Assembly: GCA_947490615.1 (NCBI GenBank)
Contig: CANLHK010000007.1
Location: 62,001-126,000 of the forward strand
DNA: 64,000 bases
Source: Planctomycetaceae bacterium
Lineage (GTDB): Bacteria; Planctomycetota; Phycisphaerae; Phycisphaerales; SM1A02
Reading direction: 5' to 3'
A program made the position numbers and the translations under genes. This document shows positions 17,535-57,058 of the stretch, piece after piece (position 1 is the first letter of the stretch; the number at the start of each line of letters is the position of its first letter). The notes below the pieces were generated by a model, which did no database searches, was not told where the DNA came from, and was given only the letters and a program-made list of their open reading frames with translations.

Positions 17535-20500
17535 CGCTGCGCACCCTGCAAATCTAGGCGTTTTTGACGAGGCTGCGGCGACCATTCCCCGCTTGGTGGA
17601 ACTGGCGGCGCCTCTTCTGGACCCGTCGAGGGCTTCATGGTTGCGGGAGACTTCCTCGGCGCGAGTTTTTCCGCGAGCTTGGTCGCGAGGTCGAGAACTC
17701 GCTGCTGTCGCATGGCAATCTCTGCAAGACGCTGCGCGCTGGTGACGGGGCCGAGAGATTCCGACAACTCCGCGAAGCTCCGGGTGCGCTTGGCAAGCGA
17801 CTCCTGCATGGCGCGCAGCAGTCGGATCTCCGCCTCGGGAGGCACCGCGCCGGGTTGCTCGCCGCCTTCGCCACCCGACTCGCCTCCTTGCTCACCTTCC
17901 TGCTCACCAAATGGATCCTCATCCTTGGGTGCGGCTCCCTCATCGAGCGCACCCACGATGGCGCTGAGTGCCTCGACCGCTTCGTCCTCTCCTGGCATCG
18001 CGTCGGTAGGACGCCCACCACTCAAGCCGTCCTTGGCATCGATCAACGCGGCATCGATCGCGTCGTGCATCTCGACCAGCGCATCCGAGTCGCGGACATC
18101 TGCCTCTTCCTCGCGCACCGCAGCGATCGCCTTGCGGAGTTCTTCCTGCACGATGCCGAGTCGGCGACTCTCGATCATTTCGCGGCGCCCGAGTGGCGCG
18201 AGTTGCGCAGGCACGATCTTCGCGACCGAACCGCGCAACGCTGCTTGTCGCTCGAGGAAGCCTCGATACTTGGCAAGCAACTCTTCGCGCTTCTCTTCCG
18301 TGGCGCGCTCTTCGGCGCGCTGGGTTGCTTCCTCTGCTTCGGTGAGTGCATCCTGCAAAGACTTCAGGGCGCCGTCCATCGCCAGCGTGGTGTCGTTGCG
18401 GTCAAACGGATCGGAGCGGAGATTGCCCGCGACCTTGGCAAGGCTTCCTGCGGCAGCGTCAAGTGTGCGCGCGACGCGTGCCGCTTCGCGTCCAGTCGCG
18501 CGGGCATCGGTCGCCACGCCGCGCGTGTTCTGCGACAACTTTCCTGCGCCAAGACCTGCGCGCTCGCGCGTCCCTGCTTGGTCCACCTCTTCATCCACCG
18601 CGGCAACCTCGTCCTTCAGGAGCTCTGCCTCCTTGATGAGACGCTTGATGGAGTCGACGAGTGATTCGAGTTGGCGGGCCAGTTCTTCGGCGCGGACCTT
18701 GCGATCCTCATCGAGTGCGTTCGATGCCTTCTGCAACGCGTCAAGCGCGCGATCCTGCGCGTCCTTCGATTGCGCCAAACGATTCTGCTCGGAGTCTTTG
18801 GCCGCCTTCTCCATCTCCTCGCGAACCTTGCCGTCCTCCGCAGCTTTCGCGGCGGCTTCGAGCGCACGCGATTGTGCGGGCTCCGCCTCCTTCAACGACT
18901 CTGCGCGCTCCTTGAGCTCCTGCACGACTTGCTCGGCCTCGGTCGCGGCCTGCTGCTGCTTGTCCGCAAGAGCGTCCACCTCGGCACGCGCTGCTGGACT
19001 GAGCTCTTCGCGTGACTCACCACCCGAGCGCTGCGCCGCTTGCTCGGTCTCGCGCGCCGATTGGCGAATCTTGTTGGCCAGCGCATCGAGTCGTCGCTTG
19101 GCAAGCCAGGAGTCTTCATCTCGATCGAGCAGGGACACGAGGTCTTCGAGCTCGTCGCGCACAGCGTCCTGTCGCGCTGCTGCTTCTTTGGCCGCTTCAG
19201 TCTTCGCGGCAGGCTCGGCTTCCTTCTGCGTTCGCTCCACGGCGCCACTGGCCTCGGCACTGCGCGACTCCGCCGTGGCAGCGAGTTCGCGCGCTTGCTC
19301 AGCAAGCTCTGCGAGCGAGGATGTGTCGCGACCATTGCGCTCAAGACGCGCGATGGTCTGCTCGATCGCTTCACGCATGCGTGCGGCGCCCTCGGTGACC
19401 GAGCCTTGCATTTCGGCGAGTCCGCTCTCCGTGGGATCGCGTTCGAGCGCATCACGCGCCTTGCCTTGACGCTCATCGACGCGCATGGCATCGCGTCGCA
19501 CACCAGCAAACACACCGCGCAGCTGACGCTCGAATTCCTCATCGCCCACAATGCGGAGAACGCGCGCCGCGCTGCGCACTCGCTCGTGGACGGGCTGGCC
19601 TGCCGTCGGTACGAAGCTGTCTTGCGCATAGGCGCGCAGGGCCACCGAGTCACCCGCCTTGAGCGCAAGCTTCGAGACATCAAGGACGCGTTCAATACTC
19701 GCGTCCGACGCTCCTTCGGCGAGGACGGCTGGTTCGTCGAGCACCAAACTCTCGGCGGAGTCCTTACCAAGTCGCGTCGCGATCTCGATGCCCGCCTGAG
19801 CGAGACCAATGTCGTCGCGCGCATCGGTGCGCATGGGAATCCTGGCGTCCGAGACGATGGACTCATCTTGCAATGGCTCTGAAATCGTGGCCGACGGCGC
19901 ACGATCGGTCAGCACATCAAACGCGAGCACAACGACATCGTCGGCCGTGATGCCGTCGGCGTCCGTCAAGGTGAGGGACAATCGAGTCGCTTCGGTCGCT
20001 GCGCAGTGGATCATCCAGTGCGCAGCGTCCGTCGGATCCACGGTCATCTGCGCCACAACGGTGCCGGTCGTTGTCTTGAGTGGAATCGCTGCGATATCAA
20101 AGGGCAACGCGCGCGAGAGTCGAAGATCAAAGAGCACTTCGCTTCCCACAAGAACGCCGTCTCGCAAGATCGCGCTCGAACCACTGCAATCGCCAAGTGG
20201 TTCCACCCGCGCAGCGACCGCGTGTGCCGCGTACGGCGGAGGATCGATGCGAGCCTCGGCCGAGGAGATGGCAGGAGGTGCGACAAGTCGAACTGTGGCC
20301 ACCTCGGTCGTCGCGTCACTGGTGAGAAATCGCACTTCGAGTTGGTCACCATCGGTGTCCACGAGGCGCTCGAACTCGCCCGATGGTTGCCGCGCCAACC
20401 CCACCTCAATCCACTCGCTGCCTTCGCCGTGTCGTGTGAGTCGATACTGCGCACGCACCCGCTCGCTCTGCGCCTCACCTTGCGTCAACTGTGCGCGCAA

Positions 20501-43512: not shown

Positions 43513-43557
43513 TGTCTCTGCGCGCCGTGCGGCGGGGTGCTTTCGTACACTTCGACG

Positions 43558-46119
43558 ATGCGCTGCAGTTCCCGTGCACTCGTTGCCCTTGTTGCTTTCA
43601 CATTGGTTCCGTCGTTCGTCGCGTTCGCGCAGAACGGCGATCGCGCAGGCGAAGTGCAGGACGACATTCCTCCGCAGTGGCGCGTGCAGGATGCGCCGAT
43701 CCGCTCCGCCAACGAGGAGCGCGCGACCTTTGAACTGGTGGATGGATACGAAGTGCAACTTGTCGCGAGCGAGCCGCTCATCGAAGCTCCCGTTGCGCTG
43801 GAGTTTGGCGCGGACGGTCGACTCTGGGTGCTGGAGATGCGCGGCTACATGCGTGACACCAGTGGTGCAGGTGAACAAGAACGACTCGGTCGTATCAAGG
43901 TGCTGCGCGACACCGATGGCGATGGCACGATGGACACGGCCACAGTCTTCCTCGATGGACTGGTGATGCCGCGCGCCATGGCGCACTGGCGCGATGGGCT
44001 TCTGGTCGTGGAGCCCCCGAATCTACTCTTTTGTCGCGACCTCGATGGCGATGATGTCGCCGACGAGTCGCGCATCATTGCCTCAGGATTCGCGGGCCTC
44101 GACAACCCCGAGCATGCGGGCAACGGACTGCTCTTCACGCTCGACAACACCTTCACGTGCTCGCAGCATCCGTTTCGGTTCCTTCCCGCGACGAGTGGCT
44201 CACGCGGTGCGTTGCGTGTGGAGGCAGTCGCGCCGCACGGACAGTGGGGCATCAGCGAAGACGCGCTGGGGCGTCTGTACTACTCGCCGAACTCCGATCC
44301 ACTCTTGGTGGACCTCGTGCCCAAGCAGTACGCGGCACGCAACAACAGTCAGAAGAGTTTCGAGGGAGTTCCCGCGCGGGCCGCGAGTGATCTGCGCGTG
44401 CATCCATCGCACCTTACGCCTGGCGTCAATCGCGGCTACCAGAAGGGAGTGCTGCGCGAAGGAAAGCTGGCAAACTTCACAGGCGCCTGCAGTCCGTTGG
44501 TGTACGAAGGCTCACTGCTGGAAGAGATGCGTGGTTGCGCACTGATCTGTGAAGTGGCGGGCAATCTGGTGCATCGCTATCGCTTGAGCGAGGTTGACGG
44601 CCAAGTCACAGCCACGCCCGCCGATGGCGAGCGCTCCTTCTGGACCTCGACCGACGAACGCTTCCGTCCTGTCGCCACAACCGTCGGACTCGACGGCGCG
44701 ATCTATGTCGCAGACATGTATCGCGGGATCATCCAGCACCGCAACTTCATGACGACCTTCTTGCGCACGCAGGTCGATGCGCGTGGTCTCACCCAACCTG
44801 TTGACGCGGGCCGCATCTGGCGCGTCGTGAACAAGGGCGGTGGCGTTCCGCTGCGAGCGCCTGACTACGCCAAGGAGAGCGATGCGCATTTGGTCGCCGC
44901 ACTTTCGAGCGGCGAGAAGTCGGTGCGCGAGGTGGCGCGTCGACTGATTGTTGAGCGCAAGAGCACCGTGGCCATCGAATCGATCGCCACCGCGCTCCGA
45001 GAGTCGATGCCCACAGCGATTCGACTGGAACACCTCTGGGCGCTTGCTGGAACTGGAGCGATGGATCGCGCGACTGTGTTGCACGCCCTTCAGAGCGACG
45101 ACGCCACCGTGCGAGTGCACGCCATTCGTATTGCTGAGCGCACGATGCCTGCGTCGGAACTCGTCGGAGTCATCGCGCGGGCGATGCACGACGAGGCGCT
45201 GGCGGTGCGCGTGCAAGCGGTCTTGAGTGTGGGAGTGTTGGACGCGACCCTGCGCACTCCAGTGCTCGAAGAGGCACTTCGAAGTGATCTTGCTTCGCGG
45301 GAAATGCGCAGCGCGGCCATCAGCTCGATGGTGGGCACCGAGCATGCGCTTCTTGATTCGATCATGAGCGGGGCCTTGCTTCCGACCGACTCCGTCGCAG
45401 CGCGCGCGTTGGCTGCCGAACTCACCGACCTTCTGCTCGACGATGGCTCGGGCAGACCATCGGGTGACTTGTTGCGTCATCTGCTTTCATCGATCGCCGC
45501 GACGGCGCCATCGCGACCATGGTTGGCACGCACGATGATCGAACGCGTCGGCGCCAAGCAACGACTCAATGCCAAGGAGCCAACCCAACTGGTCTCGAAC
45601 TTCGAACCCGATGGTTGGTGTGCGCTGCTTGCTGCAAACCTTGCCGAACTGCAACTCGCCGGCGCGGTCGATCGCAATCTCTTCTGGCCTGGTCGTCTCG
45701 ATGTCTCGTTTGTGCCACCCAAGATCGCCAAGAGTGCCTCGATGTCGTTTGAGGATTTCGGCAAGCGTCTCTACTCCAACTGCATGAGTTGCCATCAGGC
45801 CAACGGGCGCGGACTTCCTCCCGTCTATCCGCCGCTGCGCGGGAGTGAGATCGTCCTCGGCGACCCCGCCACGCTCGCCAAGATTCTCCTGCACGGGCTC
45901 GAAGGCAAGATCAGCGTCGATGGGCAGTCCTACAACCAGGTGATGCCGGCCGCGCCAGTCAAGAGTGACGAGGAGATCGCCGCGGTCTTGACCTATGTGC
46001 GAGCAGCATGGGGAAACGCCAGTGACCCTGTGGAGCCTGCGTTGGTTGCGAAGATCCGCGAGGAGACCAAGGGCCGCAGTCGTTCGTTTACCGCGAAAGA
46101 ACTTGGTCTCGGCGAGTAA
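43558..46119 (+). CDS. PVC-type membrane-bound dehydrogenase with HEAT repeats and cytochrome c domain
   Basis: An 853-residue exported protein. ATG 43558 gives a signal peptide (RALVALVAFTLVPSFVAFAQ). The N-terminal propeller starts with FELVDGYEVQLVASEPLIEA and VALEFGADGRLWVLEMRGY, the hallmark of planctomycete proteins of this type, and ends with VATTVGLDGAIYVADMYRGI. HEAT-like helices cover about 450-660. The C-terminal cytochrome domain has one haem site, NCMSCHQANGRGLPPVYPPL (Cys about 742, 745, His 746), with a distal Met probably in QVMPAAPVKSDEEIAAVL. Role by family: periplasmic oxidation of sugars or alcohols with electron transfer to the respiratory chain. Convergent with the deaminase gene. 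Confidence 0.93.
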   Translation: MRCSSRALVALVAFTLVPSFVAFAQNGDRAGEVQDDIPPQWRVQDAPIRSANEERATFELVDGYEVQLVASEPLIEAPVALEFGADGRLWVLEMRGYMRDTSGAGEQERLGRIKVLRDTDGDGTMDTATVFLDGLVMPRAMAHWRDGLLVVEPPNLLFCRDLDGDDVADESRIIASGFAGLDNPEHAGNGLLFTLDNTFTCSQHPFRFLPATSGSRGALRVEAVAPHGQWGISEDALGRLYYSPNSDPLLVDLVPKQYAARNNSQKSFEGVPARAASDLRVHPSHLTPGVNRGYQKGVLREGKLANFTGACSPLVYEGSLLEEMRGCALICEVAGNLVHRYRLSEVDGQVTATPADGERSFWTSTDERFRPVATTVGLDGAIYVADMYRGIIQHRNFMTTFLRTQVDARGLTQPVDAGRIWRVVNKGGGVPLRAPDYAKESDAHLVAALSSGEKSVREVARRLIVERKSTVAIESIATALRESMPTAIRLEHLWALAGTGAMDRATVLHALQSDDATVRVHAIRIAERTMPASELVGVIARAMHDEALAVRVQAVLSVGVLDATLRTPVLEEALRSDLASREMRSAAISSMVGTEHALLDSIMSGALLPTDSVAARALAAELTDLLLDDGSGRPSGDLLRHLLSSIAATAPSRPWLARTMIERVGAKQRLNAKEPTQLVSNFEPDGWCALLAANLAELQLAGAVDRNLFWPGRLDVSFVPPKIAKSASMSFEDFGKRLYSNCMSCHQANGRGLPPVYPPLRGSEIVLGDPATLAKILLHGLEGKISVDGQSYNQVMPAAPVKSDEEIAAVLTYVRAAWGNASDPVEPALVAKIREETKGRSRSFTAKELGLGE

Positions 46120-46128
46120 GCCTTCGAG

Positions 46129-46596
46129 TCAGCATTTCGTTTCGCGAGCACACTCGACATACTCGATGCCCGCTTCCGCCAGTAGGTCCGTGCTCTTGCG
46201 AAGATTCTCCATCCAGTGCTCGTCGCCAGCGCCGCTGGTGTAGGTCACGACGCGTACGAGTCCCGCCTGGATGATGGAGAGCGTGCAATGCACGCACGGC
46301 GAGAAGCTCGAGTAGATCGTGGCACCAAGCGGCGTCACGCCGTTGCGGGCGCACTGCACGATGGCGTTCATCTCGGCATGACAGGTCAGGTCGTACTTCA
46401 CAGGGCGCGCGAGGCGCTCGGGTCGATCTTCGATACCGCGAGGGAGTCCATTGAATCCCGTGGCAACGATTTGGCGCGTTGGACTCACGATGACGGCACC
46501 AACTCCACGCGACGGGTCTTTCGACCATCGCGAGATGGTGTCGGAGAGTTCAAGGAATCGACGGTCCCAGCGAGCGGTGCGGTCTCCATCCTGCAT
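46129..46596 (-). CDS. dCMP deaminase / ComEB-like deoxycytidylate deaminase
   Basis: A 155-residue zinc-dependent deaminase. The catalytic HAE is at 73-75 (DLTCHAEMNAIVQC) and the PCxxC zinc pair is Cys101/Cys104 (SSFSPCVHCTLSIIQAG). GVGAVIVSPTRQIVATGFNG near residue 31 and the N-terminal WDRRFLELSDTISRWSKDPS match deoxycytidylate deaminases, which supply dUMP for thymidylate synthesis. ComEB-type paralogues look the same, and comEC is present elsewhere in the window but far away. It lies 30 bases downstream of the subtilase stop codon, so it could be read through from that operon. There is no clear ribosome site. Confidence 0.92.
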   Translation of the reverse strand: MQDGDRTARWDRRFLELSDTISRWSKDPSRGVGAVIVSPTRQIVATGFNGLPRGIEDRPERLARPVKYDLTCHAEMNAIVQCARNGVTPLGATIYSSFSPCVHCTLSIIQAGLVRVVTYTSGAGDEHWMENLRKSTDLLAEAGIEYVECARETKC

Positions 46597-46626: not shown

Positions 46627-48099
46627 TCACCACGCCGAGAGCAGGATCGCGAGGTCGCGAGCATCAACTTCGCCGCTGGCGTTGAGGTCCGCGCGGACGA
46701 AGGTCGGTGCGAGACCCCAGGCAGACAGCAGAATCGAGAGGTCCGCTCCGCCGACGACTCCGTCGGCGTTGAGATCTCCGAGGACTGGCGCAGGCGGATT
46801 CTCCAAGACGGCTCCGCTGGCGAGAATTCGCGCGATGCCGAGCAGTCCGTCGTAGTTTGGATTGCTCGGGTGAATCGGGATTCCCGAGTTCGCGAGCACG
46901 GTGTAGACGCGGTTGCGAATCGATGGCGGGGTCACCGTCTTGTTCGGCCATTCAGGGCGCTGTGCGCGGACCAGCGCGACGGTGCCGCTCACAAACGCGT
47001 TCGAGAAGGAAGTTCCCTCCCACACGGCGTAATTGTTTCCAGGAACGGGACCGATGATCGAACGCGCGAGCGTCGGAACGCCTGCGATGATTTCAGAGTC
47101 GCCAGGAGCCGCAAAGTCGAGCCGTACCTCGAGATTCGAGAACGGAGCCTTCTGGTCGTTCCAATCGCAGGCCGAGACGCCGAACGCGTTCGGGTCGCAG
47201 GCAGGGAACTCGCGCGGGTCCTGGGTGTTTCGATTGCCTGCTGCGCCGCACACGATGACGCCACGCGTCGAGGCTTCCAACACCATTTGCTCGAGAGCAA
47301 GCGAGTGGTAGGTCTCACCGAGGCTCATGTTGATGACATGTGCGCCACGATCGATCGACCACGCTACGGCTTGGGCGATGCGGAAGTTGTTGCCGCGACC
47401 ATCGCTGTCCAACGCGCGCGCCGAGAGAATCATCGCATCGGGTGCGACGAGGTGAATCAGGCCCGCGACGAAGGTGCCATGTCCAAACTGGTCGTTGGGA
47501 ATGCCGTCGCCGTCGCTGTCGGTTCCATCGGCGAGGTCGTTTGAAGTGGGCGAACCAGGCACAAAGCTCACGCCTTGGCTGCTGATCTTGCCTTCAAACA
47601 CAGGGTGACGCGGATCGATGCCGTTGTCGACGACCGACACCACGATGCCTGCGCCGCGTGAGCGTCCATGGGCTTTATTGATGCCCAGCATCGGCGCCGC
47701 GTATTGATCGAAGTACTGGTCGCCGTTCACAGCGACGCCCGACAGCCACAGGCTGTCGGTGTTGCCTTCGCCGGTCTGGCCGACATAGTTCATCTCCGAC
47801 CAAGCGAGCGTTCCCTGCGCGACGAGGTTGATGAGCACCGTCTCGACATCGTGATAAACCTGACCTTGGCTCAACTCATAGGAGAGCAGATAGATCGGGC
47901 GACCCGCAATCTGATCGACCACGCCAACGCCCTGAAACTGCTGGGAGAGCGTGCTGACGGTCTGTGCGAGTGCTTTGGCGGTCGTGGCACGCACGATCGC
48001 TTGGCCGGGGACCAGTGGAAATTCTGGCACCCCACCTGCAAAGGCGTGTGCATTGACCAAGGCGACGACGATCGCTGCGATGAATGGAGACTTGATCAT
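46627..48099 (-). CDS. Secreted subtilisin-like (S8) serine protease with dockerin-type C-terminus
   Basis: A 490-residue exported protease, last gene of the CHAT operon. ATG 48099 overlaps the CHAT gene stop (ATGA) and starts a signal peptide (IKSPFIAAIVVALVNAHAFA). Residues about 25-105 look like an I9-type propeptide (LVPGQAIVRATTAKALAQTV, NLVAQGTLAWSEMNY). The subtilase domain has the full triad: Asp158 in VVSVVDNGIDPRHPVF, His207 in FGHGTFVAGLIH and Ser364 in GTSFSNAFVSGTVAL, with oxyanion Asn289 in GAAGNRNTQD. The C-terminus has two dockerin-type Ca loops (LGDLNADGVVGGADLSILLS, RADLNASGEVDARDLAILLS). Probably active outside the cytoplasmic membrane. Confidence 0.94.
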   Translation of the reverse strand: MIKSPFIAAIVVALVNAHAFAGGVPEFPLVPGQAIVRATTAKALAQTVSTLSQQFQGVGVVDQIAGRPIYLLSYELSQGQVYHDVETVLINLVAQGTLAWSEMNYVGQTGEGNTDSLWLSGVAVNGDQYFDQYAAPMLGINKAHGRSRGAGIVVSVVDNGIDPRHPVFEGKISSQGVSFVPGSPTSNDLADGTDSDGDGIPNDQFGHGTFVAGLIHLVAPDAMILSARALDSDGRGNNFRIAQAVAWSIDRGAHVINMSLGETYHSLALEQMVLEASTRGVIVCGAAGNRNTQDPREFPACDPNAFGVSACDWNDQKAPFSNLEVRLDFAAPGDSEIIAGVPTLARSIIGPVPGNNYAVWEGTSFSNAFVSGTVALVRAQRPEWPNKTVTPPSIRNRVYTVLANSGIPIHPSNPNYDGLLGIARILASGAVLENPPAPVLGDLNADGVVGGADLSILLSAWGLAPTFVRADLNASGEVDARDLAILLSAW

Positions 48100-50903
48100 G
48101 AGAGTGACCCCGTGACGACGAAGGGCGACCACCACGAAGGATGGCCCCACTTCCTCAGCGAAGCAAGTGTGGCTGCGCGAAGTGCGGCGGATGGACGAGA
48201 ACCCCGCATAAATTCCTGATGAAAGACGGTTGATACCTCGAGAGCTGCCTGATCTCGGACCGACCAGAGGCCAGCCACAAGACAACGGGCGCCCGCAGCG
48301 AGAAACGCGCGGCTAATACCAGCCAGTTCGTCGCCAGCATCGACGGCGTTGCGCCCCGTCTCACAGCCAGCAAGGAAGACGACCTGCGCATCGAGTTCAA
48401 GGTCCACGATCTCGCGAATCGGCAGCCAGCCATCGGCGAGCTTGAGGCCCGAAGCGTTGGGCAGCGCACCGATGAATCGGCCATGGCAGCCGAAGTGGAT
48501 CATGCTGCGACCACGGACCGACTGGCGGACGCGATCGATGGAAGCGTCGTCGCCTTCGAGCAGATCGGCCGAGCTCTGCGCGGTGAGGAGCTTGGCCTCG
48601 GCGTCAATGAGCGGAGCTTGTTCGTCAGCCACCGCGATGACCAACGGCGTGGAGTTCGTGGCGCGTCGCATCGAACGATCGGCACAGGCGATCGAGGCGC
48701 TCGGCGCAGTGTGGATTTCGTAGCGCTCGATGAGGTACTCAGAACCATCATGGAGCGCAGAGAACGGCACGGCATGGAGCGGACCAAACGGCACAATGAC
48801 GAGCCGCTTGGCGTCACGCACGATGGGCACCTGCTCAAGAATCGGCAGCACCAGCAGATCGTGGAGCGCGCGAGACAAGGCCTTGATCGTGCGTTGACTG
48901 CGATCGTCGGCGGCGCGCACACCCGCGCGGAGTTGGTAGAGGAACTTGTCGACCAAGGGAGCGATGTCGGACGCGTTGGCGATGCAACGCACCGACGACA
49001 TCACACCACCCTGTACGACAAAGGCCATGAGCTCTTCGCCGGCGATGAAGTAGGCGATCATCGCGTCATCTTGGGCGAGGCGAGCGCGAACCTCACTGGC
49101 GTCGAGTGGTCGAGCGAAGAGGCTGGCGACTCCACGAGCGTTCTGTTCGCGGGTGACGAGGCGTTCCAGCTCGCTTTCGGTGGCCCGCATGTCGTCGAGA
49201 AGATCGGGCGAAACGCCGCGGCGCTCTCCTGGTTCGGAGGCATCGCGGTTCACGCGAGAATGCAGTGACGCGAGTCGGGCGCGAAGACGGGCGATTTCAT
49301 CGCGGGCCTGTCGAGGAGCCGCTGGCGCGTTGGTTGATCGATCGATGGAGCGCAAGACCGCGTCAAGAAGCACGCGGCTTCGCGCGCGCTCCACGGTGAC
49401 GAAGGCCTCGGCGAGCGAGTCGGCATCGGCGCGGGTCAGAAGGTCAAGCGCCAGATCTTCGTAGACGCGCAGGCGAGACGAAGCGAAGGCGGAGCGCAAG
49501 CGATCCGCCGCGAGTGAACCACGCAGTTCTTCGGCGAGTCCGACCGCATGCGAGAGCGACGCGATCGCGCCATTGAGGGAGCCCGAGGCGCGTTCGGAAT
49601 CTGCTTCGGCCAACGCAGCGTCGATCTCGACCGTGCGCACACCAAGCGAGGCCGCACCAAGGCGGGCGCTGCGCGCGGCGTCGAGACTTCGCGCTGTGTT
49701 TCCAAGAGCAAGTTCTGCACGAGCGGTACGCACCATGGCGCGCGCGCTGTCGAGCGGACTGGCATCCATCATGGCCTTGGCCGCAAGTTGCGCGGATTCG
49801 GTCGCGTCGCCTTCACGCAGCGCGATTTCACTGGCCACGAGTGCCGAGGCGCGCATGCCGCGCGCGTCACCAATTTGTGTGGCCAGCGCGAGAGCGCGAG
49901 CCGCGGCGGGTTTCGCTTCCTCGACGCGATCGGCGGCGGCAAGGGCGCGTGCGCGCACCAAGAATCCGCGGGCCATTTCAGCCTTGAGTCCCTTACTCGA
50001 AGCGGTTTCAAGCGCAGCTTCTACGGCTTCGAGCGCTTCTCCATGCGCGCCCAGCACCGCCAACGCCTCGGCCTCTTCCAGAAGCAAGCGAGCGTGATGA
50101 CCAGGTGCGATGTTCGCGACCATGTGCGAGGCACGATCGAACTCGCGCAAGGCGTCACCGAAGCGACCCTCGCGAGCCAGGAGGTCGGCGCGATTGCCGA
50201 TCACGACGGCGTGCGCGAGGGGCAGGCTGGTCAAACCAGCCTCGGCGCGGTCGAAGGCTGCATGCGCTTCGGCCAATCGATCGAGCTGAAGCAGGGTTTC
50301 ACCGAGCGTGTTCTCGACGGTGCCGCGCGCCGCGACCTCAGTCTGCGCAATACCCATCAAAGCACGCTCAAGGCAAGCAATCGCGTCCGGTTGCTCACCA
50401 CGGATCTTGTGGACATTCGCGAGATTCAGTTCCGCGCGCGCAGCGAGATCGCCGCGACCGATGGAAGCCAGAGCATCGCGCGACATGCGGCCACGCTCAA
50501 TGGCTTCGGAGGTTCGGCCAAGTTTGGCCAAGGCGTGCATCGAGGCGACGCCTGCGCGGGCTCGCTCGAGCGGATCGTTGGCGGCTTGCGCGGCCTCTTG
50601 GGCTTCGGCAGCGCGAACAAGTGATTCATCCAGTCGGCCCGCGTAGGCAAGCGCAGGAATAGTGGCGCGCAGTGCGCGGGCCAGTCCAGACTTCGCGTTG
50701 AGTGTTCGGGCCACGACAGCCAGAGCGTCACCCAAGTGCAAGGCGCGATCGGGCGATCCAGCAGCGAGACGCTCACACTCATCACCAAGGGCGACGAGAA
50801 CGCCGGCCACGCCGCGCGCATCACTCTTCACCGCATCGACGCGTGCATCGTTGGTGAGCGCCTCAAACGCTGCGAGATCGAGCGGGTGCGCGGTCGGGCT
50901 CAT
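48096..50903 (-). CDS. TPR repeat protein with C-terminal CHAT (caspase-like) protease domain
   Basis: A 935-residue cytoplasmic protein with no signal peptide. Residues about 60-480 are TPR-like helical repeats rich in Ala (RAELNLANVHKIRGEQPDAI, GNRADLLAREGRFGDALREF, ARLLLEEAEALAVLGAHGEA). A helical linker follows (LDLLTRADADSLAEAFVTVE, LRARLASLHSR). The CHAT domain covers about 640-935: VIVPFGPLHAVPFSALHDGS, His807 in SMIHFGCHGRF and Cys847 in VVFLAGCETGRNAVDAGDEL, then SRAFLAAGARCLVAGLWSV. This His/Cys pair is the caspase-type dyad, so it should be a cysteine protease gated by the TPR part. ATGA overlaps on both sides tie it to the small protein upstream and the subtilase downstream. Confidence 0.94.
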   Translation of the reverse strand: MSPTAHPLDLAAFEALTNDARVDAVKSDARGVAGVLVALGDECERLAAGSPDRALHLGDALAVVARTLNAKSGLARALRATIPALAYAGRLDESLVRAAEAQEAAQAANDPLERARAGVASMHALAKLGRTSEAIERGRMSRDALASIGRGDLAARAELNLANVHKIRGEQPDAIACLERALMGIAQTEVAARGTVENTLGETLLQLDRLAEAHAAFDRAEAGLTSLPLAHAVVIGNRADLLAREGRFGDALREFDRASHMVANIAPGHHARLLLEEAEALAVLGAHGEALEAVEAALETASSKGLKAEMARGFLVRARALAAADRVEEAKPAAARALALATQIGDARGMRASALVASEIALREGDATESAQLAAKAMMDASPLDSARAMVRTARAELALGNTARSLDAARSARLGAASLGVRTVEIDAALAEADSERASGSLNGAIASLSHAVGLAEELRGSLAADRLRSAFASSRLRVYEDLALDLLTRADADSLAEAFVTVERARSRVLLDAVLRSIDRSTNAPAAPRQARDEIARLRARLASLHSRVNRDASEPGERRGVSPDLLDDMRATESELERLVTREQNARGVASLFARPLDASEVRARLAQDDAMIAYFIAGEELMAFVVQGGVMSSVRCIANASDIAPLVDKFLYQLRAGVRAADDRSQRTIKALSRALHDLLVLPILEQVPIVRDAKRLVIVPFGPLHAVPFSALHDGSEYLIERYEIHTAPSASIACADRSMRRATNSTPLVIAVADEQAPLIDAEAKLLTAQSSADLLEGDDASIDRVRQSVRGRSMIHFGCHGRFIGALPNASGLKLADGWLPIREIVDLELDAQVVFLAGCETGRNAVDAGDELAGISRAFLAAGARCLVAGLWSVRDQAALEVSTVFHQEFMRGSRPSAALRAATLASLRKWGHPSWWSPFVVTGSLS

Positions 50904-51622
50904 TCCGAACTCCCCCCGCGCCGCGTGTTCATCGGTGAGTCGGGACCGAGTGGCAGCACGATTGTGGGATGCACGGTTCCATCAGGAGCCGATGCGCTGA
51001 CGACGACTTCAAAGGAGTCGCGTGGCAGGGCGATGGCAAACATGCTCAGCGAATCAGTGCTGTCGGTCGACAACACGATGCCTGAGCAATCCAACACCGC
51101 GAGTACAGCCTTGATCGGCATGTCGTCGTCGCGGGTGATTTCTCCGACGAGCCGCACGATGCCGTTCTGCGAGGTGGTGCGCTCGGCGCGAATCGTGATC
51201 TGGGCGGAGGCCACCACAGCTTCGAAGAGATCGGCGCCGCGATCGTCGCGCACACCAGCGAGCGCGAGTCCGTTGTCGGGGTTGATCCACTCCAACACGA
51301 CGGCTCCAGCGCGGTCGAAGGCTTCGCCGAGGACTGCGAGAGGATGGCGTTGTGCCGCGCGACGGGGAGCGAGCCGTGCGCCGAGTTGCTTGGCGCGCTG
51401 CACAGCATCCACTGGAGGTTCGAACGCGGCATCACCGCGCATCGCTGCGACGGCATGGGTGAAACTGGTCAGGACTTTGCCGACATGCGGATCGCGTGCT
51501 GCAGCGGCGATGACGGCTTGCGCCAGATCGGAGCCAGCTGCACCCGAAGCGACGGCGGCGATCTGTTCGATCGTCACCTTCGATCCTGGTCCGTGGTCAG
51601 GGTTGTGGGGTGTATGGGTCAT
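50900..51622 (-). CDS. Unknown protein between ECF sigma factor and CHAT protease
   Basis: A 240-residue soluble protein; I do not recognise a named domain. The N-terminal half is helical (KVTIEQIAAVASGAAGSDLA, VGKVLTSFTHAVAAMRG). The C-terminal half from about residue 95 is beta-rich (GAVVLEWINPDNGLALAGVR, IVRLVGEITRDDDMPIKAVL, SMFAIALPRDSFEVVVSASA, HPTIVLPLGPDSP). I recall proteins with the LALAGVR-type segment between ECF sigma and CHAT genes in other bacteria, which would make it a conserved part of the module, perhaps an anti-sigma or adaptor; this is memory, not a search. There is no membrane helix. Its stop overlaps the CHAT start (ATGA). Confidence 0.78.
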   Translation of the reverse strand: MTHTPHNPDHGPGSKVTIEQIAAVASGAAGSDLAQAVIAAAARDPHVGKVLTSFTHAVAAMRGDAAFEPPVDAVQRAKQLGARLAPRRAAQRHPLAVLGEAFDRAGAVVLEWINPDNGLALAGVRDDRGADLFEAVVASAQITIRAERTTSQNGIVRLVGEITRDDDMPIKAVLAVLDCSGIVLSTDSTDSLSMFAIALPRDSFEVVVSASAPDGTVHPTIVLPLGPDSPMNTRRGGSSE

Positions 51623-51744
51623 GGGTCTCGTCCTTCAGACGGAGTCGTCGACTCCGGTTCTTCACCGCAGAAGAGCCGCCGCGAGGGCTTCGGATACAGC
51701 AAGCGTGGGAAAGGGCGTATTCAGCAGGGGTTGCAGCGGGATTC

Positions 51745-52368
51745 TCACTCCTCATCCTCCGAAGCGGCGGGGGTTATTGAGGCTGAGGCGGTGTCAGAGA
51801 ACCCGAGTCGTCCGAGAATGGCGCTCAGTTTCTCGAGGCAGCGGGCTCTGGTCGGCCCGATCGAACCGATGCGGATGCCAAGCTTCTCGGCGATCAGGGT
51901 GTAGTTGGGCTCGCTACCCGCACCAAAAAGGGCCTCGAGAAGGTCCTTGCACTTTCCGCCAAGCCGCTCGAGGCCTTCGCGGACAAGCTGCTTCTCAAGT
52001 TGGGCGCGCGACTCGACGGGGTCGTCGCGGGTGTCGACGGGATCAAGCGACCGTTCGGAGTCCGACTCAAAACTCCGCGCGCGCTCAGCCGACTTCCGAG
52101 ATTGCCCCGTCACCCGCCAGCAGCGGCGTTTCGTCGTCGTGACGAGCCAGCTCGCCAGCGCGTTCTCGTCGTTGATCTCATCGATGTTGGAAACCAGCGT
52201 GGCAAAGACATGCTGGAAGACATCTTCGGCATCTTCGCTGCGCATGTGGTGCTTCACGATGACCGACCAGACGAGTCGTCGGTAGCGATCGACAAGTTGT
52301 GACCACGACGCAGTGTCACCCTTGCGACAACGCGCGATCAGGGTGGGGTCTGGTTCAAACGACGACAC
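51745..52368 (-). CDS. ECF sigma factor controlling the CHAT-subtilase locus (inferred)
   Basis: A 207-residue sigma-70 family protein with regions 2 and 4 only. Region 2: LIARCRKGDTASWSQLVDRY, LVWSVIVKHHMRSEDAEDVF, HVFATLVSNIDEIND then LASWLVTTTKRRCWR. Region 4: LVREGLERLGGKCKDLLEAL and a helix-turn-helix with YTLIAEKLGIRIGSIGPTRA. GTG 52368 suits the family; an ATG at 52485 would add 39 unalignable residues running into the divergent promoter region. No ribosome site decides it. An acidic tail ends the protein. It is 122 bases upstream of the unknown gene and head to head with a second ECF gene at 52509. Confidence 0.85.
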   Translation of the reverse strand: MSSFEPDPTLIARCRKGDTASWSQLVDRYRRLVWSVIVKHHMRSEDAEDVFQHVFATLVSNIDEINDENALASWLVTTTKRRCWRVTGQSRKSAERARSFESDSERSLDPVDTRDDPVESRAQLEKQLVREGLERLGGKCKDLLEALFGAGSEPNYTLIAEKLGIRIGSIGPTRARCLEKLSAILGRLGFSDTASASITPAASEDEE

Positions 52369-52508
52369 GGGCGGGCAGTGTAAGCGGTTGAACCGAGCGC
52401 GAATCGCAGCAGGTTTGGCTTCAAACGCGCCAAGGTGAGTGTCGAGTGGGGTCCATGCTCGCGGCCGCCATCGTTTCAATGTCAATCAAATTCTGAGACA
52501 ACCCACCC

Positions 52509-53159
52509 ATGGATCCCATGCGCGCGCCTGTGAACGACGACTGCTCTGATCTTGCGGCGCTTGACGCTGGCGATCGGGAAGCGGGAAGACGACTCTACGA
52601 CCGCCACGCTGCCGTGCTCTTTGCGCTTTGTCGCCAGGAGACGGGAGCGCGCACGGTGCAGGACGCTGAAGACGCTGTGCAGGAAACCTTCCTGCGCGCG
52701 TTTCGGATGCGCGATCGTCTGACCGACTGCACCGGTTTCCGGCCGTGGCTCTACGCGATCGCTCGGCTCGTCTGCAAGGAACGCAAGAACACGCGCGCGA
52801 AGGAGCGCCGTGACCTTGGCTATGGACTCGACGCGTCGCGTCGCAGCTCCAAGACAGGTGCCTCCGAAGGAAGAAAGCCCATGCCTCCACACACCATGCA
52901 GGGACTCTTTGAACGCCAGGTGGACACCGCGCCATCCGCGCCCCTTGAGCATCAAGAGACCCTCGGCCGCCTCGGCGCGGCCATCGACACCCTTCCAGCA
53001 GATGTGCGCCTCGCGTTGCACCTCTTCTACATCGAACCCGATCCCGTCGAAGCGGCGAAGCGCGCGCTGGGAATCTCCCGCGCGCAGTTCTACCGCCTCG
53101 TCACCCAAGCCCGCCAATCTATTGCCGCGCAACTCACGCGCGAGGATCTCGAGTCATGA
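52509..53159 (+). CDS. ECF sigma factor paired with a VIT-vWA membrane protein
   Basis: A 216-residue ECF sigma factor. Region 2: LAALDAGDREAGRRLYDRHA, QDAEDAVQETFLRAFRMRDR, then FRPWLYAIARLVCKERKN. Between regions 2 and 4 is a longer basic linker than usual (about 95-135, including RRDLGYGLDASRRSSK). Region 4: LPADVRLALHLFYIEPDPVE and ALGISRAQFYRLVTQARQS. Its stop overlaps the next gene's start (ATGA at 53156-53159), the typical arrangement of an ECF factor with its anti-sigma factor. The divergent promoter region (52369-52508) is shared with the other ECF gene. Confidence 0.88.
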   Translation: MDPMRAPVNDDCSDLAALDAGDREAGRRLYDRHAAVLFALCRQETGARTVQDAEDAVQETFLRAFRMRDRLTDCTGFRPWLYAIARLVCKERKNTRAKERRDLGYGLDASRRSSKTGASEGRKPMPPHTMQGLFERQVDTAPSAPLEHQETLGRLGAAIDTLPADVRLALHLFYIEPDPVEAAKRALGISRAQFYRLVTQARQSIAAQLTREDLES

Positions 53160-56100
53160 CCAACGCAAGTAATCAACCTCGGCGCGACGACGATGAGTCC
53201 GCTGTTCCAACGCCTGTTCGTGGCGATCGTCTTGATGCGCTGCTTTCCGAGTGGCACGACACCAATAAGCAGCGCGCGCGGGCGATGCGCGACAGCACCA
53301 TGGCTCAGGTGGGCACATCGAAACCCGAGCGCAGCGTCTTGGCGCGCATCGGATTCGTCCGCATGCTCTCCGCTGCAGCCGTGCTGGCCTTCAGCGTGGT
53401 GCTCGTGCTGCTGTTCTTCCAGAACACTGAGAAGTCGGCGTTCGCGGAAGGCGGTCTCGTGCAAGTGGCCGACGGCGGCGCGCTCGACGCGATCGACGGC
53501 GATGGCAACACGCTCGGTCCTTGTCCTCTGCAACACACCGATGTGAAGGTCGAGATCAGCGGTCTCTTCGCACGCACCGTCGTGGAGCAGACCTACGCGA
53601 ATCCCTATCCACGCACGATCGAAGCGGTCTACACCTTTCCGCTGTCGCACCACGCGGCGGTCGATCGCATGACGATGATCGTCCGCGGTCCAGGCGGCGA
53701 GAAGACCATCGAAGGCGAAGTGAAGGAACGCTCGGTGGCGCGCGCGATCTATGAGGACGCGCGTGAGTCGGGCTATGTCGCGAGCTTGCTCGAGCAAGAG
53801 CGACCGAACATCTTCACGCAGTCGGTCGCCAACATTGAACCTGGCGCCACGGTGAAGGTGCGCATCGCCACCATCGAGTTGGCGCGACGCGTCAACGGTG
53901 TCGCTGAGTATGTCTTTCCGATGGTGGTTGGTCCGCGCTACATCCCGGGTCGTACGGCGTCCACGCCATCACTGCCCGAAGGTTGGGAAGTGCGCGAGGG
54001 CGTCGTCCTTCGCGCGCCAGCAGGTATCGAGATCGCCGCAGAAACACCTGCTTTTGCGGCGGGTCGCCTTTCGCAACTGCTCGAGCAAGCCATCCCGGTG
54101 CGCGCGCCCAAGCATGAAGCGATCGACGAACTCCTGCAACTCGGTGAGAGCGTGCAATTCAGCGCGAAGTACGGCAACGGAAGCGCCGAGCGCGGTGTGT
54201 ACTTCCCCATGCGTGGGCTTGGCGAACTGAACGGGCGGTTCTTCTTCGCCCCACTTGGCCGCGATCAAGGAACGGGTTTCGCGGGCGACACCAACCAGGT
54301 GCCTGATGCTTCGCGCATCACCCCGATGCCCGTGAAGCCCAGCGATCGTGCTGGTCATGACATCAGTGTGTCGGTCACGCTCGACTCGGGCGGCCCAGCG
54401 ATTCGTGATGTCGAGAGCGAGCTCCACGCCGTGCGCGTGCTGCCGGGCTCGGACTCAACACGAACCATCACGCTCGAAGATCGCAGCACGATTCCCAACC
54501 GCGACTTCATTCTGCGTTGGAAGGTTGCCGACTCTGCGATTGAGCCAGCATTCTTTACGCATGTGAGTGACAGCGCCGACGCGTCGGTGGCGGGCGGCTA
54601 CTTCGCGCTCATGCTCGATCCGCCTGCACGAGTGGCGCCTTCGGAAGTTCGTCCACGCGAACTCATCTTCGTGCTCGATGTCTCGGGTTCGATGAACGGC
54701 TTCCCCATCGAGAAGTCGAAGGAGTTGGCGCGCAAGGCGATCGCCGCGATGCGCTCGAACGACACCTTCAACTTCATCACCTTTGCGGGCGCGACGAGCG
54801 TGCTCTGGCCAGAACCACAAGTCGCCAATGAAGCGAATCGCAAGCGCGCCGAAGAATTCGTGAACGGTGCCTACAGCTCGGGCGGCACCGAAATGATGAC
54901 TGCGATCAACACCGCGCTGTTGCAGGAGGGTCGCAGTGGTTTGGCACCAGCGAAACTTCTCGATCTTCCTGCGGACGGTCGCAGTGTTCGATTGGCTGTG
55001 GCCCACGATGCGATCGAGCGCACCGCGACGGGCACACTGCTCAACGCTGGACAAGGTCGCACGATCGGCGTCGAGATCACCGTCGCGATTCCCGCGAACC
55101 CCAAGAAGCTCGCGCTCATCGTCGATGGAACCTGGGAAACCCGCGACGGCAATCGGATCTTCGTCACCAAGAGCGCACGGTTCGAAGACGCCGACGCACG
55201 AACGCGTCTCGTCTTCTTCCTCACCGATGGCTATGTCGGCAACGACCAAGGCATCATCGCGGCGGTGCGGGACAACGCCCGTGCATCGCGCGTGTTCAGC
55301 TTCGGCATCGGCAACAGCGTGAACCGTTTCCTTCTTGAGGAAATGGCGCGCGCTGGACGCGGTACCTGTGAGATCGTCACGCTCGCGGAAGAAGCCGATG
55401 GCGTCATTGAGCGACTCACGCGCCGCATCGAGTCGCCAGTCCTCACCGACATCGAGTTGGAGATCCCTGAGAACCTTGCGATGCACCATGTGTTGCCCGC
55501 GGGCGATCAACTACCCGACCTCTACGATCAGGAGCCGATCGTGCTCTTGGGTCGCTTTGATCGTGCAGCGCGTGGCGCAATCACTGTGCGGGGACGCACG
55601 GGTGCTGGTCCATGGGAGCGCACGATCTCGGTCGACCTTCCAGCTGTGGAGGTCAAGCACGATGTCGTGCGCACACTGTGGGCGCGCGGCGAAGTTGACG
55701 CGTTGTTGATGCCCAAGCTTGCGGCGGTCGAGAGCCAGTCGCTCGACGCGCCGACGAAGCGCGCGGTCATTCGTCTTGGTGAGTCGTACTCCATCGCGAC
55801 GCCGTACACGAGTTTCGTGGCCGTTGAGAAGAGCCGCGTGGTCGTCGGTGGAAAGCCGATGCTCGTCGCGGTTCCTGTCGAACTCCCTGAAGGAACCAAC
55901 TGGGCGAGTTTCTTTGGTGAGGCAGCGCGCCCGACGGACGCGTTCGCGGCCGAGGGTCGAGGCGCGGCGCACGACAGTTTGTCGCGGCTTGCCGACGCAG
56001 CTGCGTTGCGCGGACTTCTTGATTCGGCGCGCGATGAAGGCGAGCTCGAAGGGTCGGCGCGGGGCGAGTCCCTCTACTTTGGCTTGGAATCGGCGTCGAA

Positions 56101-57058
56101 GAAGGCGATTTCTCCCAACGCTCCGCCTCCAACTTCTGCCACAGCCTCGGCGGGCGTGAGCGGTTCGGTCAGCGCACCACCACCTTCCGCTGCGCCTTCG
56201 ACGGCGCCAGTCTCTGCACCTTCCTCTCTCAACCTACCAACACTCTCTGCGGGAACGAACCCAGCTCCGACTCCGATCAATCCTCCAGGCGCAGTGCTTG
56301 GTGGTCGTCAGGCGTTTGGCAAGGCGAAGCAGGAGTTGAGCAAAGATGGCGCGAATCGAACCGAAGAGCGCAAGCCTTCAAGCGGTGTGGCGCTTGGCGA
56401 TAAAACGCGAACACGATTCGCCGGCGATACCGCCAATCGCCGCGACAGCGCCGTTGACCGTGGCGCTTCCTTCGATTTCAAACGCAACGCTGGTGGCGTC
56501 GGAGGTTCGGGCGGATTCGGCGGTTCAGGCGGTGGTGGTGGCGCGGGCGGTGGCGCCAGTGCGCCCAGTGGCGGATTCGTCGGTGGCGGGACGCTCGCCT
56601 CAAGACCCATGACCACCGTTCTCGCGGATGGCCTCGATGTGTTGTCGCAGTCCGAAACGGCGGTGGGAGCTCCCGACAGCGATGCACCGAATGGTGCTGT
56701 AGCGAAGCCGCTTCTGACGCTCGCGCAGCGTGATCGTCTTGCTCGCGTGCTTGATCGAGGTCTGGTGTTGCTGGCCATCGCGCAACTCCTTGAACCCACC
56801 GAGCCCACGCAGGCACTGGCCACCGAACTCGGCTTGCGTGTCGAGAACGGACTGATCGCGCTGCGCATGAAGGTCGCCACCGACGCGGCGGGCGCCATCG
56901 ATCCCGCGTTGCTTGAGGCCTTCAAGGCGCTCGGTCTCACCATCACCGGTGAAGACCTCAAGCGCGGACTGGTGATCGCGCGGGTTCCTGTGGCAAGTCT
57001 GATGAAGTTGGCCTTGCTTGAGCAAGTCAAGCGCGTGGAGCCCATGGCGCCACGCTGA
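53156..57058 (+). CDS. Single-pass VIT-vWA protein, candidate membrane anti-sigma receptor
   Basis: A 1300-residue protein. Residues 1-65 are hydrophilic and presumably cytoplasmic (RLDALLSEWHDTNKQRARAM), then one membrane helix (MLSAAAVLAFSVVLVLLFF). A VIT domain follows at about 100-250 (VEISGLFARTVVEQTYANPY, IEAVYTFPLSHHAAVDRMTM, EVKERSVARAIYEDARESGY). A vWA domain starts at ELIFVLDVSGSMNGFPIEKS with intact DxSxS, but is interrupted at about 590-682 by a beta-rich insert before TRLVFFLTDGYVGNDQG. After about 950 come Pro/Ser-rich and Gly-rich stretches (GGFGGSGGGGGAGGGAS). The last 110 residues are an alpha/beta domain (LEAFKALGLTITGEDLKRGL, VIARVPVASLMKLALLEQVK) like subtilase propeptides. 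Overlap with the sigma gene suggests it restrains that factor. Confidence 0.92.
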   Translation: MTNASNQPRRDDDESAVPTPVRGDRLDALLSEWHDTNKQRARAMRDSTMAQVGTSKPERSVLARIGFVRMLSAAAVLAFSVVLVLLFFQNTEKSAFAEGGLVQVADGGALDAIDGDGNTLGPCPLQHTDVKVEISGLFARTVVEQTYANPYPRTIEAVYTFPLSHHAAVDRMTMIVRGPGGEKTIEGEVKERSVARAIYEDARESGYVASLLEQERPNIFTQSVANIEPGATVKVRIATIELARRVNGVAEYVFPMVVGPRYIPGRTASTPSLPEGWEVREGVVLRAPAGIEIAAETPAFAAGRLSQLLEQAIPVRAPKHEAIDELLQLGESVQFSAKYGNGSAERGVYFPMRGLGELNGRFFFAPLGRDQGTGFAGDTNQVPDASRITPMPVKPSDRAGHDISVSVTLDSGGPAIRDVESELHAVRVLPGSDSTRTITLEDRSTIPNRDFILRWKVADSAIEPAFFTHVSDSADASVAGGYFALMLDPPARVAPSEVRPRELIFVLDVSGSMNGFPIEKSKELARKAIAAMRSNDTFNFITFAGATSVLWPEPQVANEANRKRAEEFVNGAYSSGGTEMMTAINTALLQEGRSGLAPAKLLDLPADGRSVRLAVAHDAIERTATGTLLNAGQGRTIGVEITVAIPANPKKLALIVDGTWETRDGNRIFVTKSARFEDADARTRLVFFLTDGYVGNDQGIIAAVRDNARASRVFSFGIGNSVNRFLLEEMARAGRGTCEIVTLAEEADGVIERLTRRIESPVLTDIELEIPENLAMHHVLPAGDQLPDLYDQEPIVLLGRFDRAARGAITVRGRTGAGPWERTISVDLPAVEVKHDVVRTLWARGEVDALLMPKLAAVESQSLDAPTKRAVIRLGESYSIATPYTSFVAVEKSRVVVGGKPMLVAVPVELPEGTNWASFFGEAARPTDAFAAEGRGAAHDSLSRLADAAALRGLLDSARDEGELEGSARGESLYFGLESASKKAISPNAPPPTSATASAGVSGSVSAPPPSAAPSTAPVSAPSSLNLPTLSAGTNPAPTPINPPGAVLGGRQAFGKAKQELSKDGANRTEERKPSSGVALGDKTRTRFAGDTANRRDSAVDRGASFDFKRNAGGVGGSGGFGGSGGGGGAGGGASAPSGGFVGGGTLASRPMTTVLADGLDVLSQSETAVGAPDSDAPNGAVAKPLLTLAQRDRLARVLDRGLVLLAIAQLLEPTEPTQALATELGLRVENGLIALRMKVATDAAGAIDPALLEAFKALGLTITGEDLKRGLVIARVPVASLMKLALLEQVKRVEPMAPR

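Follow-up and report, generated by a model that had tools for sequence, protein, structure and literature searches.

In the type III-E system of clustered regularly interspaced short palindromic repeats (CRISPR), the TPR-CHAT protease Csx29 cleaves Csx30, the N-terminal part of which binds the sigma factor CASP-sigma and blocks its DNA binding (PMC10028731), and recognition by the CHAT protein and cleavage take place near the C-terminus of Csx30 (PMC11106740). How the sigma factor is released in this complex, called Craspase, was described as unclear by its discoverers (PMC10028731). A second relevant case is ECF54, a group of extracytoplasmic function (ECF) sigma factors with carboxypeptidase, subtilase and CHAT neighbours, which a review places among the sigma factors that are controlled proteolytically and have no anti-sigma factor (PMC8999054). 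Here, we analysed a 64,000 nt stretch of DNA from a Planctomycetaceae bacterium (contig CANLHK010000007.1 of assembly GCA_947490615.1, positions 62,001 to 126,000; hereafter the window), in which genes for an ECF sigma factor, a small protein, a TPR-CHAT protein and a subtilase follow each other. Judging from sequence comparisons, a structure model and the analogy with the described systems, we estimate a probability of roughly 0.6 that the four genes form a cytoplasmic sigma switch under the control of CHAT proteolysis; this figure, like the graded wording used for other claims, is a judgement and not a computed value.

All four genes are located on the minus strand, in the order ECF sigma factor, 240-residue small protein, TPR-CHAT protein and subtilase (Table 1). 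The last three are joined by ATGA overlaps, both of which can be read in the sequence, and a gap of 122 bases separates the sigma gene from the small-protein gene downstream of it. This arrangement had been pointed out in an earlier reading made from the letters of the window alone (the sequence-only reading) and was confirmed. According to our proposal, the small protein would be a soluble anti-sigma factor with a four-helix N-terminal domain that keeps the ECF sigma factor inactive, while the TPR-CHAT protein would recognise its beta domain and a conserved linker. A cytoplasmic signal, presumably sensed via the TPR repeats, would activate CHAT, and the active protease would cut the anti-sigma protein (our guess is within the linker, perhaps after Arg125) or displace it in another way. 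The released sigma factor would then transcribe the operon, the output being the subtilase, an exported protein with a dockerin domain.

The assignment of the small protein as an anti-sigma factor appears very probable to us, based on family profiles and a structure model of its N-terminus. We aligned 46 small proteins (alignment A4: 45 sequences from 44 loci plus the window copy, with rows of uncertain start excluded) and compared the resulting profile with all PDB sequences. The first match was a NOMO2 beta domain, and hits 2–6 were anti-sigma factors, namely RsiW (E-value 8e-4), RslA (1.2e-3), DdvA (4.2e-3) and ChrR twice (0.03 and 0.04), all aligned at positions 6–82. With a profile of 40 N-terminal pieces, RslA (4.7e-6), DdvA (4e-4) and RsiW (1.2e-3) were hits 1–3. 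Because a fold search with the model of the whole protein (mean predicted local distance difference test, pLDDT, of 81.6) returned mostly beta domains and thus left the N-terminus unprobed, residues 10–92 were modelled alone, which yielded four helices with a pLDDT of 93.8. Searching 350,542 chains with this model, Foldseek gave 26 matches, 16 of which, including the first eight, came from ECF sigma/anti-sigma complexes; judged by chain length, the matched chain was the anti-sigma partner. In a comparison by VIA covering 30 chains, the top eight entries were RslA, RsiW, RskA, ChrR (two), MucA (two) and RseA, with Z values of 4.1–6.5. Of the features that characterise class I anti-sigma domains, sequence similarity is thus provided by the family profile, and a three-helix bundle with a fourth helix is present in the model. 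The zinc motif Hx3Cx2C, a mark of the zinc-binding domains of this class that is optional and can be lost within it (PMC7406223), occurs in 5/46 A4 members (one each from L156, L178 and L183 and two from L173), Hx4Cx2C occurs in seven more, and 14/46 matched zf-HC2 at E-values up to 1 (best 1.9e-6). The sequence-only reading had cast the small protein as an adaptor; a role limited to this is not supported, as profiles and model point to an anti-sigma domain at its N-terminus.

Several observations weigh against this assignment. The window protein alone matched nothing above the Pfam cut-off and no anti-sigma model, and it does not contain the Hx3Cx2C motif. In the search with the 40 N-terminal pieces, the unrelated chain PscE (0.021) ranked below RsiW, ahead of ChrR and RskA. 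The Foldseek E-values for the N-terminal model were all above 1, the best VIA Z value was 6.5, and the root mean square deviation exceeded 10 in three of the eight anti-sigma entries. 

When the small protein alone served as query against genome contigs, no relative was found, because its sequence diverges too fast; relatives are recovered solely by profiles and gene position, and by these means a small-protein match was present in 54/79 loci of the far search described below. A solved structure named 'CHAT domain-containing protein' (PDB 8rot_B, 991 amino acids) showed a weak N-terminal match to the anti-sigma profile (E-value 0.039), which may reflect the fusion of an anti-sigma-like domain with CHAT; a literature query with the 8rot codes returned no paper.

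A carboxypeptidase-regulatory-like beta sandwich makes up the C-terminal half of the small protein. It accounts for the NOMO2 match of the A4 profile (4.8e-8), CarboxypepD_reg was matched by 14/46 relatives at E-values up to 1 (best 2.6e-8), and VIA gave a Z value of 10.0 against the alpha2-macroglobulin of E. coli. Between the two domains, model confidence was lowest at residues 118–122, and the surrounding residues 113–130 had a mean entropy of 2.11, the lowest of five segments compared (2.46–2.72 in the others). The linker consensus is approximately FDSRxxxALAG[VFLY]R[GS], and Arg125 is identical in 46/46 sequences, the sole such residue besides the start Met. Since the motif is conserved and yet apparently flexible in the partner of a protease, conservation and model suggest that the linker is a cutting or docking site for that protease. 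That the cut would fall at Arg125 itself is possible but somewhat doubtful. The motif fits a docking or structural role equally well, because it is kept in standalone beta proteins, a point that counts against cleavage there: the beta proteins found beside CHAT and a kinase carry a DSR...GxR-like motif 22–50 residues from their N-terminus.

These standalone proteins belong to CHAT loci of the same phylum that have neither the sigma nor the anti-sigma part. Instead, a beta protein of 119–154 residues with the motif is flanked by CHAT or S8 on one side and by a histidine kinase on the other. Such sets occur in 10 of 40 stretches from the phylum (L106, L109, L111, L113, L114, L115, L116, L117, L118 and L123), eight of which had themselves served to build the kinase and beta profiles behind this count. 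Pfam recognised kinase domains in all four proteins tested (L106, L116, L114 and L123). The standalone and window-family beta domains matched each other with an hhalign probability of 89.5 (E-value 2e-6), and hmmsearch, in a set of six sequences, detected four of the standalone proteins below an E-value of 0.01; the other two were unmatched below 0.1, which we count against the proposal. One Meiothermus-titled record (L182) has a beta protein, its motif reading DSR...AVR, beside a GAF-GGDEF-HD protein and CHAT. From these sequences, CHAT and the beta domain would seem to be the constant core and the output to be exchangeable. This suggests a different way of working, in which TPR-CHAT controls the anti-sigma factor without cutting it and acts as a partner-switching scaffold attached to the beta domain and to the linker motif, since both stay beside CHAT even where the anti-sigma domain is gone and the neighbour is a histidine kinase or, in one case, a GAF-GGDEF-HD protein. 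However, the CHAT His and Cys are invariant in 34/34 aligned sequences, which would be needless for a mere scaffold, and we regard this explanation as improbable. A wider generalisation, which we hold to be rather unlikely, would make CHAT and its DSR...GxR beta partner a general CRISPR-free cassette of several phyla with anti-sigma/ECF, histidine kinase or cyclic di-GMP enzyme outputs, in which the invariant Arg marks the point after which CHAT cleaves its partner; the Csx29-Csx30-sigma arm of type III-E would then be a late recruit.

In the TPR-CHAT protein, Pfam placed CHAT (PF12770) at residues 675–933 with an E-value of 2.7e-52 (178.4 bits against a cut-off of 24) and listed TPR_2 at 1e-7, and a CHAT-domain profile matched the solved TPR-CHAT/Csx29 chains with E-values from 3e-12 to 9.6e-9. 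The catalytic pair His807/Cys847 is kept in the 34/34 module members mentioned above and in 27/27 aligned relatives; the latter alignment, like that of the subtilases, includes the window, and pieces shorter than 700 residues (350 for the subtilase) or with at most 70 bits were dropped. The intactness of this dyad and of the subtilase triad, already noted in the sequence-only reading, thus extends to the relatives (27/27 and 29/29, respectively). Two further acidic residues, Asp884 and Glu769, are invariant in 34/34 module members. The acid of separase that reads the P1 Arg lies about 41 residues past the catalytic Cys, corresponding to position 888 here. This position is variable in the family, and a role of Asp884 as a separase-type acid was therefore rejected; the separase Asp itself is named in PMC10317155. 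Glu769, which faces Asn in the TPR-CHAT alignment, might be the S1 acid, but this is a guess from the alignment. One genome of the same genus (G015) has a CHAT gene broken into two reading frames, the match being interrupted by a stop (L050, 8036–10909).

The protease could also act on the sigma factor directly. If CHAT degraded the sigma factor itself, no anti-sigma factor would be needed and the small protein would be an accessory protein or substrate adaptor, in line with the review that lists ECF54, found next to carboxypeptidase, subtilase and CHAT genes, as controlled by proteolysis and lacking such a factor (PMC8999054). In our module, however, the carboxypeptidase-like neighbour bears an anti-sigma domain, which is not part of that ECF54 reading, and we consider direct degradation of the sigma factor quite improbable.

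The fourth gene encodes an apparently secreted protease. Peptidase_S8 was found at residues 149–389 (E-value 5.9e-40, 137.8 bits against a cut-off of 21.8), the triad Asp158/His207/Ser364 is kept in 29/29 aligned subtilases including that of the window, and a Dockerin_1 match at the C-terminus, overlooked in the sequence-only reading, lies just over the cut-off (24.5 against 22.9 bits). A crude script, which chose the most hydrophobic start, found a hydrophobic N-terminus in 59/61 S8 neighbours, and no export signal was seen by eye in CHAT. The subtilase had been described as exported with an I9-like propeptide; the signal-peptide-like N-terminus bears out the first part, whereas Inhibitor_I9 was not listed by Pfam, the one resource used for this, at E-values up to 1. 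Since the S8 N-termini are hydrophobic while CHAT has no visible export signal, the subtilase looks like the output of the switch and not like the second step of a cascade. The sequence-only reading had favoured a cascade of two proteases or a suicide response, the subtilase being placed downstream of CHAT. The two protease genes are indeed tightly coupled in most loci, and a TPR-CHAT protease participates in type III-E CRISPR (PMC10028731). However, the two enzymes probably reside in different compartments by this crude measure, and the dockerin tail fits an extracellular protein, making a two-protease cascade unlikely by sequence. Nothing was found in favour of cell death, PADLOC returning a generic subtilase match and no other defence-model match. 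Taken together, we give very little credence to either form of this explanation.

The recurrence of the module was followed in three sets of loci. As several loci from different sets lie on the same contigs, the sets overlap and their counts are not additive. The near search covered 61 genomes (that of the window and its relatives), 27 of which had a CHAT match, and 30 further stretches were examined around these. Sigma factor, CHAT and subtilase stood in the same order in 25/31 near stretches including the window; five of the remainder end at contig edges (L053, L056, L057, L058 and L073) and L074 holds a different CHAT. A reading frame of more than 150 codons lies between the sigma and CHAT genes in 23/26 near loci that hold both, including cases in which BLAST detects no similarity any more. 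The far search used the CHAT domain alone (A2) as query against a species-genome collection, and the best 80 of 83 relatives, corresponding to 79 distinct loci, were scored with sigma, small-protein and subtilase profiles built from the relatives of the window. We counted the 58 loci whose flanks extended 1.8 kb or more upstream and 1.5 kb or more downstream, accepting sigma and S8 genes within 3.5 kb on either strand. Sigma factor, small protein and subtilase were found in 48, 46 and 45 of them, respectively, and all three in 44. Full sets were present in 30/31 loci with a CHAT score of at least 700, in 13/18 at 400–700 and in 1/9 below 400; because they drop with the CHAT score, the linkage is a property of this CHAT family and not of CHAT generally. 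The records with full sets are titled Planctomycetota/Phycisphaerales, Chloroflexi and kin (L156, L173, L178), Eisenbacteria (L222), Chthonomonas/Chthonomonadaceae (L184, L186, L189, with the sigma gene on the other strand in the first two), Acidobacteria (L203, L205) and others. Two Nocardioides loci (L210, L211) hold a sigma gene and CHAT with no subtilase match.

Within the phylum, we picked 40 further stretches from the best CHAT matches. By profile, nine hold all four genes, five of these in the permuted order S8-ECF-small-CHAT (L120, L121, L124, L128, L129); four miss the small-protein match alone (L119, L125, L127, L136), two have sigma factor and CHAT (L135, L137), and in ten, CHAT and S8 occur but this sigma factor does not. 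The association goes beyond chance: the 3.26 Mb source genome contains one CHAT, seven S8 and 17 sigma region-2 matches, yet the set recurs in distant genomes. The sequence-only reading had called for such a neighbourhood check, naming recurrence in unrelated genomes as support and CHAT homologues mostly without these neighbours, or poorly conserved active sites, as the opposite outcome; with full sets in 44/58 far loci and conserved sites, the former was observed. Two counts nevertheless weigh on the other side: 14/58 far loci were without one or more partners, and CHAT had no partner in 15/40 phylum stretches. Three loci titled Candidatus Kuenenia stuttgartiensis and Limnohabitans (L148, L149, L151) contain the module at 55–79% CHAT identity, and their titles look mislabelled. 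Diverged second copies of the module are present in two genomes of the genus (L069, L073), and runs of at least two subtilase genes behind CHAT were seen among L069, L073, L110 and L112.

We further inspected the 5′ regions of the genes. For the sigma factor, we prefer a GTG start at 52368 to the longer reading frame that opens with TTG at 52485, as a TACACT box sits just upstream of the former and recurs in relatives. This box, spotted post hoc, is present in 7/7 aligned upstream regions and in 9/10 regions of a second comparison (L160 being without it); TACACTGC is found once in the whole window. The gap between the sigma and anti-sigma genes contains a YGTATY element in 31/48 cases, compared with a mean of 3.4 and a maximum of 9 in 200 rounds of shuffling, with 3 on the opposite strand and with 1 within the sigma genes. 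The window and its close relatives account for 9 of the 31 gaps; among the 17 gaps without the element, the genes almost touch in some and are clearly separated in others. The motif had been spotted before it was tested, and a search for a −35 partner found none. Tentatively, this sequence pattern may represent a promoter of the anti-sigma, CHAT and subtilase genes, perhaps recognised by the module's own sigma factor.

Table 1 Features of the sigma factor/TPR-CHAT/subtilase module in the window
Feature	Position	Strand	Basis
ECF sigma factor, 207 aa, GTG start	51745..52368	-	Sigma70_r2 2.9e-10; TIGR02937 5.1e-20; kept at same place in relatives
TACACT box, possible -10 element	52377..52382	-	directly 5′ of sigma gene start; recurs in relatives
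TGTATC element, possible -10 of a second promoter	51693..51698	-	in sigma/anti-sigma gap; YGTATY count
Small protein, proposed anti-sigma factor and CHAT partner/substrate, 240 aa	50900..51622	-	family profile; model pLDDT 81.6
Predicted anti-sigma domain, residues 18-90, four helices	51353..51571	-	N-terminal model; VIA; RslA profile match 4.7e-6
Linker, residues 113-126, with invariant Arg125; candidate cleavage/docking site	51245..51286	-	low entropy, low pLDDT
Carboxypeptidase-regulatory-like beta sandwich, residues 131-224	50951..51232	-	NOMO2 4.8e-8; CarboxypepD_reg; VIA
TPR-CHAT protein, 935 aa	48096..50903	-	CHAT 2.7e-52; TPR_2 1e-7
CHAT protease domain, residues 675-933, His807 and Cys847	48105..48881	-	Pfam; dyad conservation
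Secreted subtilase (predicted), 490 aa, signal-peptide-like N-terminus	46627..48099	-	Peptidase_S8 5.9e-40; triad conserved
Type I dockerin domain of subtilase	46642..46782	-	Dockerin_1 24.5 bits vs cut-off 22.9

The immediate upstream neighbour of the module is another, divergent ECF sigma gene, after which comes a gene for a 1300-residue VIT/VWA protein (window positions 52509–57058), and a weak opposite-strand ECF match recurs upstream in six relatives of the genus (L145, L146, L148, L150, L151, L154). Downstream lies a small deaminase gene (46129–46596) and, past it on the opposite strand, a gene whose DUF7133 product contains HEAT repeats as well as a cytochrome c domain (43537–46119).

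The comparison with type III-E CRISPR, drawn already in the sequence-only reading, proved apt as an analogy of organization, although not of detectable descent. No Csx29 match was found in the genome of the window at an E-value of 1e-60; gRAMP (Cas7-11) and CRISPR arrays were not searched for. Between CASP-sigma and Csx30 from two type III-E loci and the sigma factor and small protein of the module, no relation was detected, a point against the proposal, although very distant homology would be compatible with it. One type III-E locus with a Csx29 above the cut-off (L226, 11685–17795; G248) encodes, at the place expected for Csx30, a protein of 514 amino acids (16251–17795) that had no Csx30 model match, matched zf-HC2 over the Pfam cut-off (7.6e-8) and gave weak matches to anti-sigma models; we read this as a CRISPR-linked CHAT adjoining a recognisable zinc anti-sigma protein. 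A homology of the module with Csx30/CASP-sigma through this zinc-finger protein was considered and not upheld (hmmsearch E-value 0.0026 in a tiny set, hhalign probability 1.7).

If the proposed switch is correct, it assigns a function that can be tested to a set of bacterial TPR-CHAT proteases unconnected with CRISPR, and it provides a simple counterpart to the sigma switch of Craspase. The association of a secreted subtilase with a caspase-like enzyme would also make sense if the protease set free a sigma factor in response to a cytoplasmic signal. Provided that the sigma factor of the window belongs to ECF54, the small protein would supply the missing anti-sigma factor of a sigma group listed without one. 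The gene context is already in print; what is new is the anti-sigma domain on the carboxypeptidase-like neighbour. Among the matches listed in the literature searched, judged by titles and the beginnings of abstracts, we found no apparent report of a pairing between CHAT and an anti-sigma factor in a non-CRISPR setting.

Compared with the described systems, the module most resembles the arrangement of Csx29, Csx30 and CASP-sigma, as one locus combines a TPR-CHAT protease and an ECF-type sigma factor with a putative sigma inhibitor made of two parts, the N-terminal of which would bind sigma. It differs in the additional subtilase and in its CHAT, which scores 58.1 bits against the Csx29 cut-off of 300. 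With ECF54, it shares the location of an ECF sigma gene near carboxypeptidase(-like), subtilase and CHAT genes, the gene context given for that group (PMC8999054), but the carboxypeptidase-like neighbour, in a group listed without an anti-sigma factor, is here a putative anti-sigma protein. The N-terminal domain of this protein resembles the class I anti-sigma domains of RslA, RsiW, RskA, ChrR, MucA and RseA in fold and profile; unlike these, it is joined to a beta domain of the carboxypeptidase-regulatory-like type, and the window copy is without the zinc motif. Finally, in the RseA/DegS/RseP pathway a membrane-bound anti-sigma factor is processed by membrane proteases (PMC10028731), whereas the module described here is predicted to combine a soluble anti-sigma factor with a cytoplasmic caspase-fold protease.

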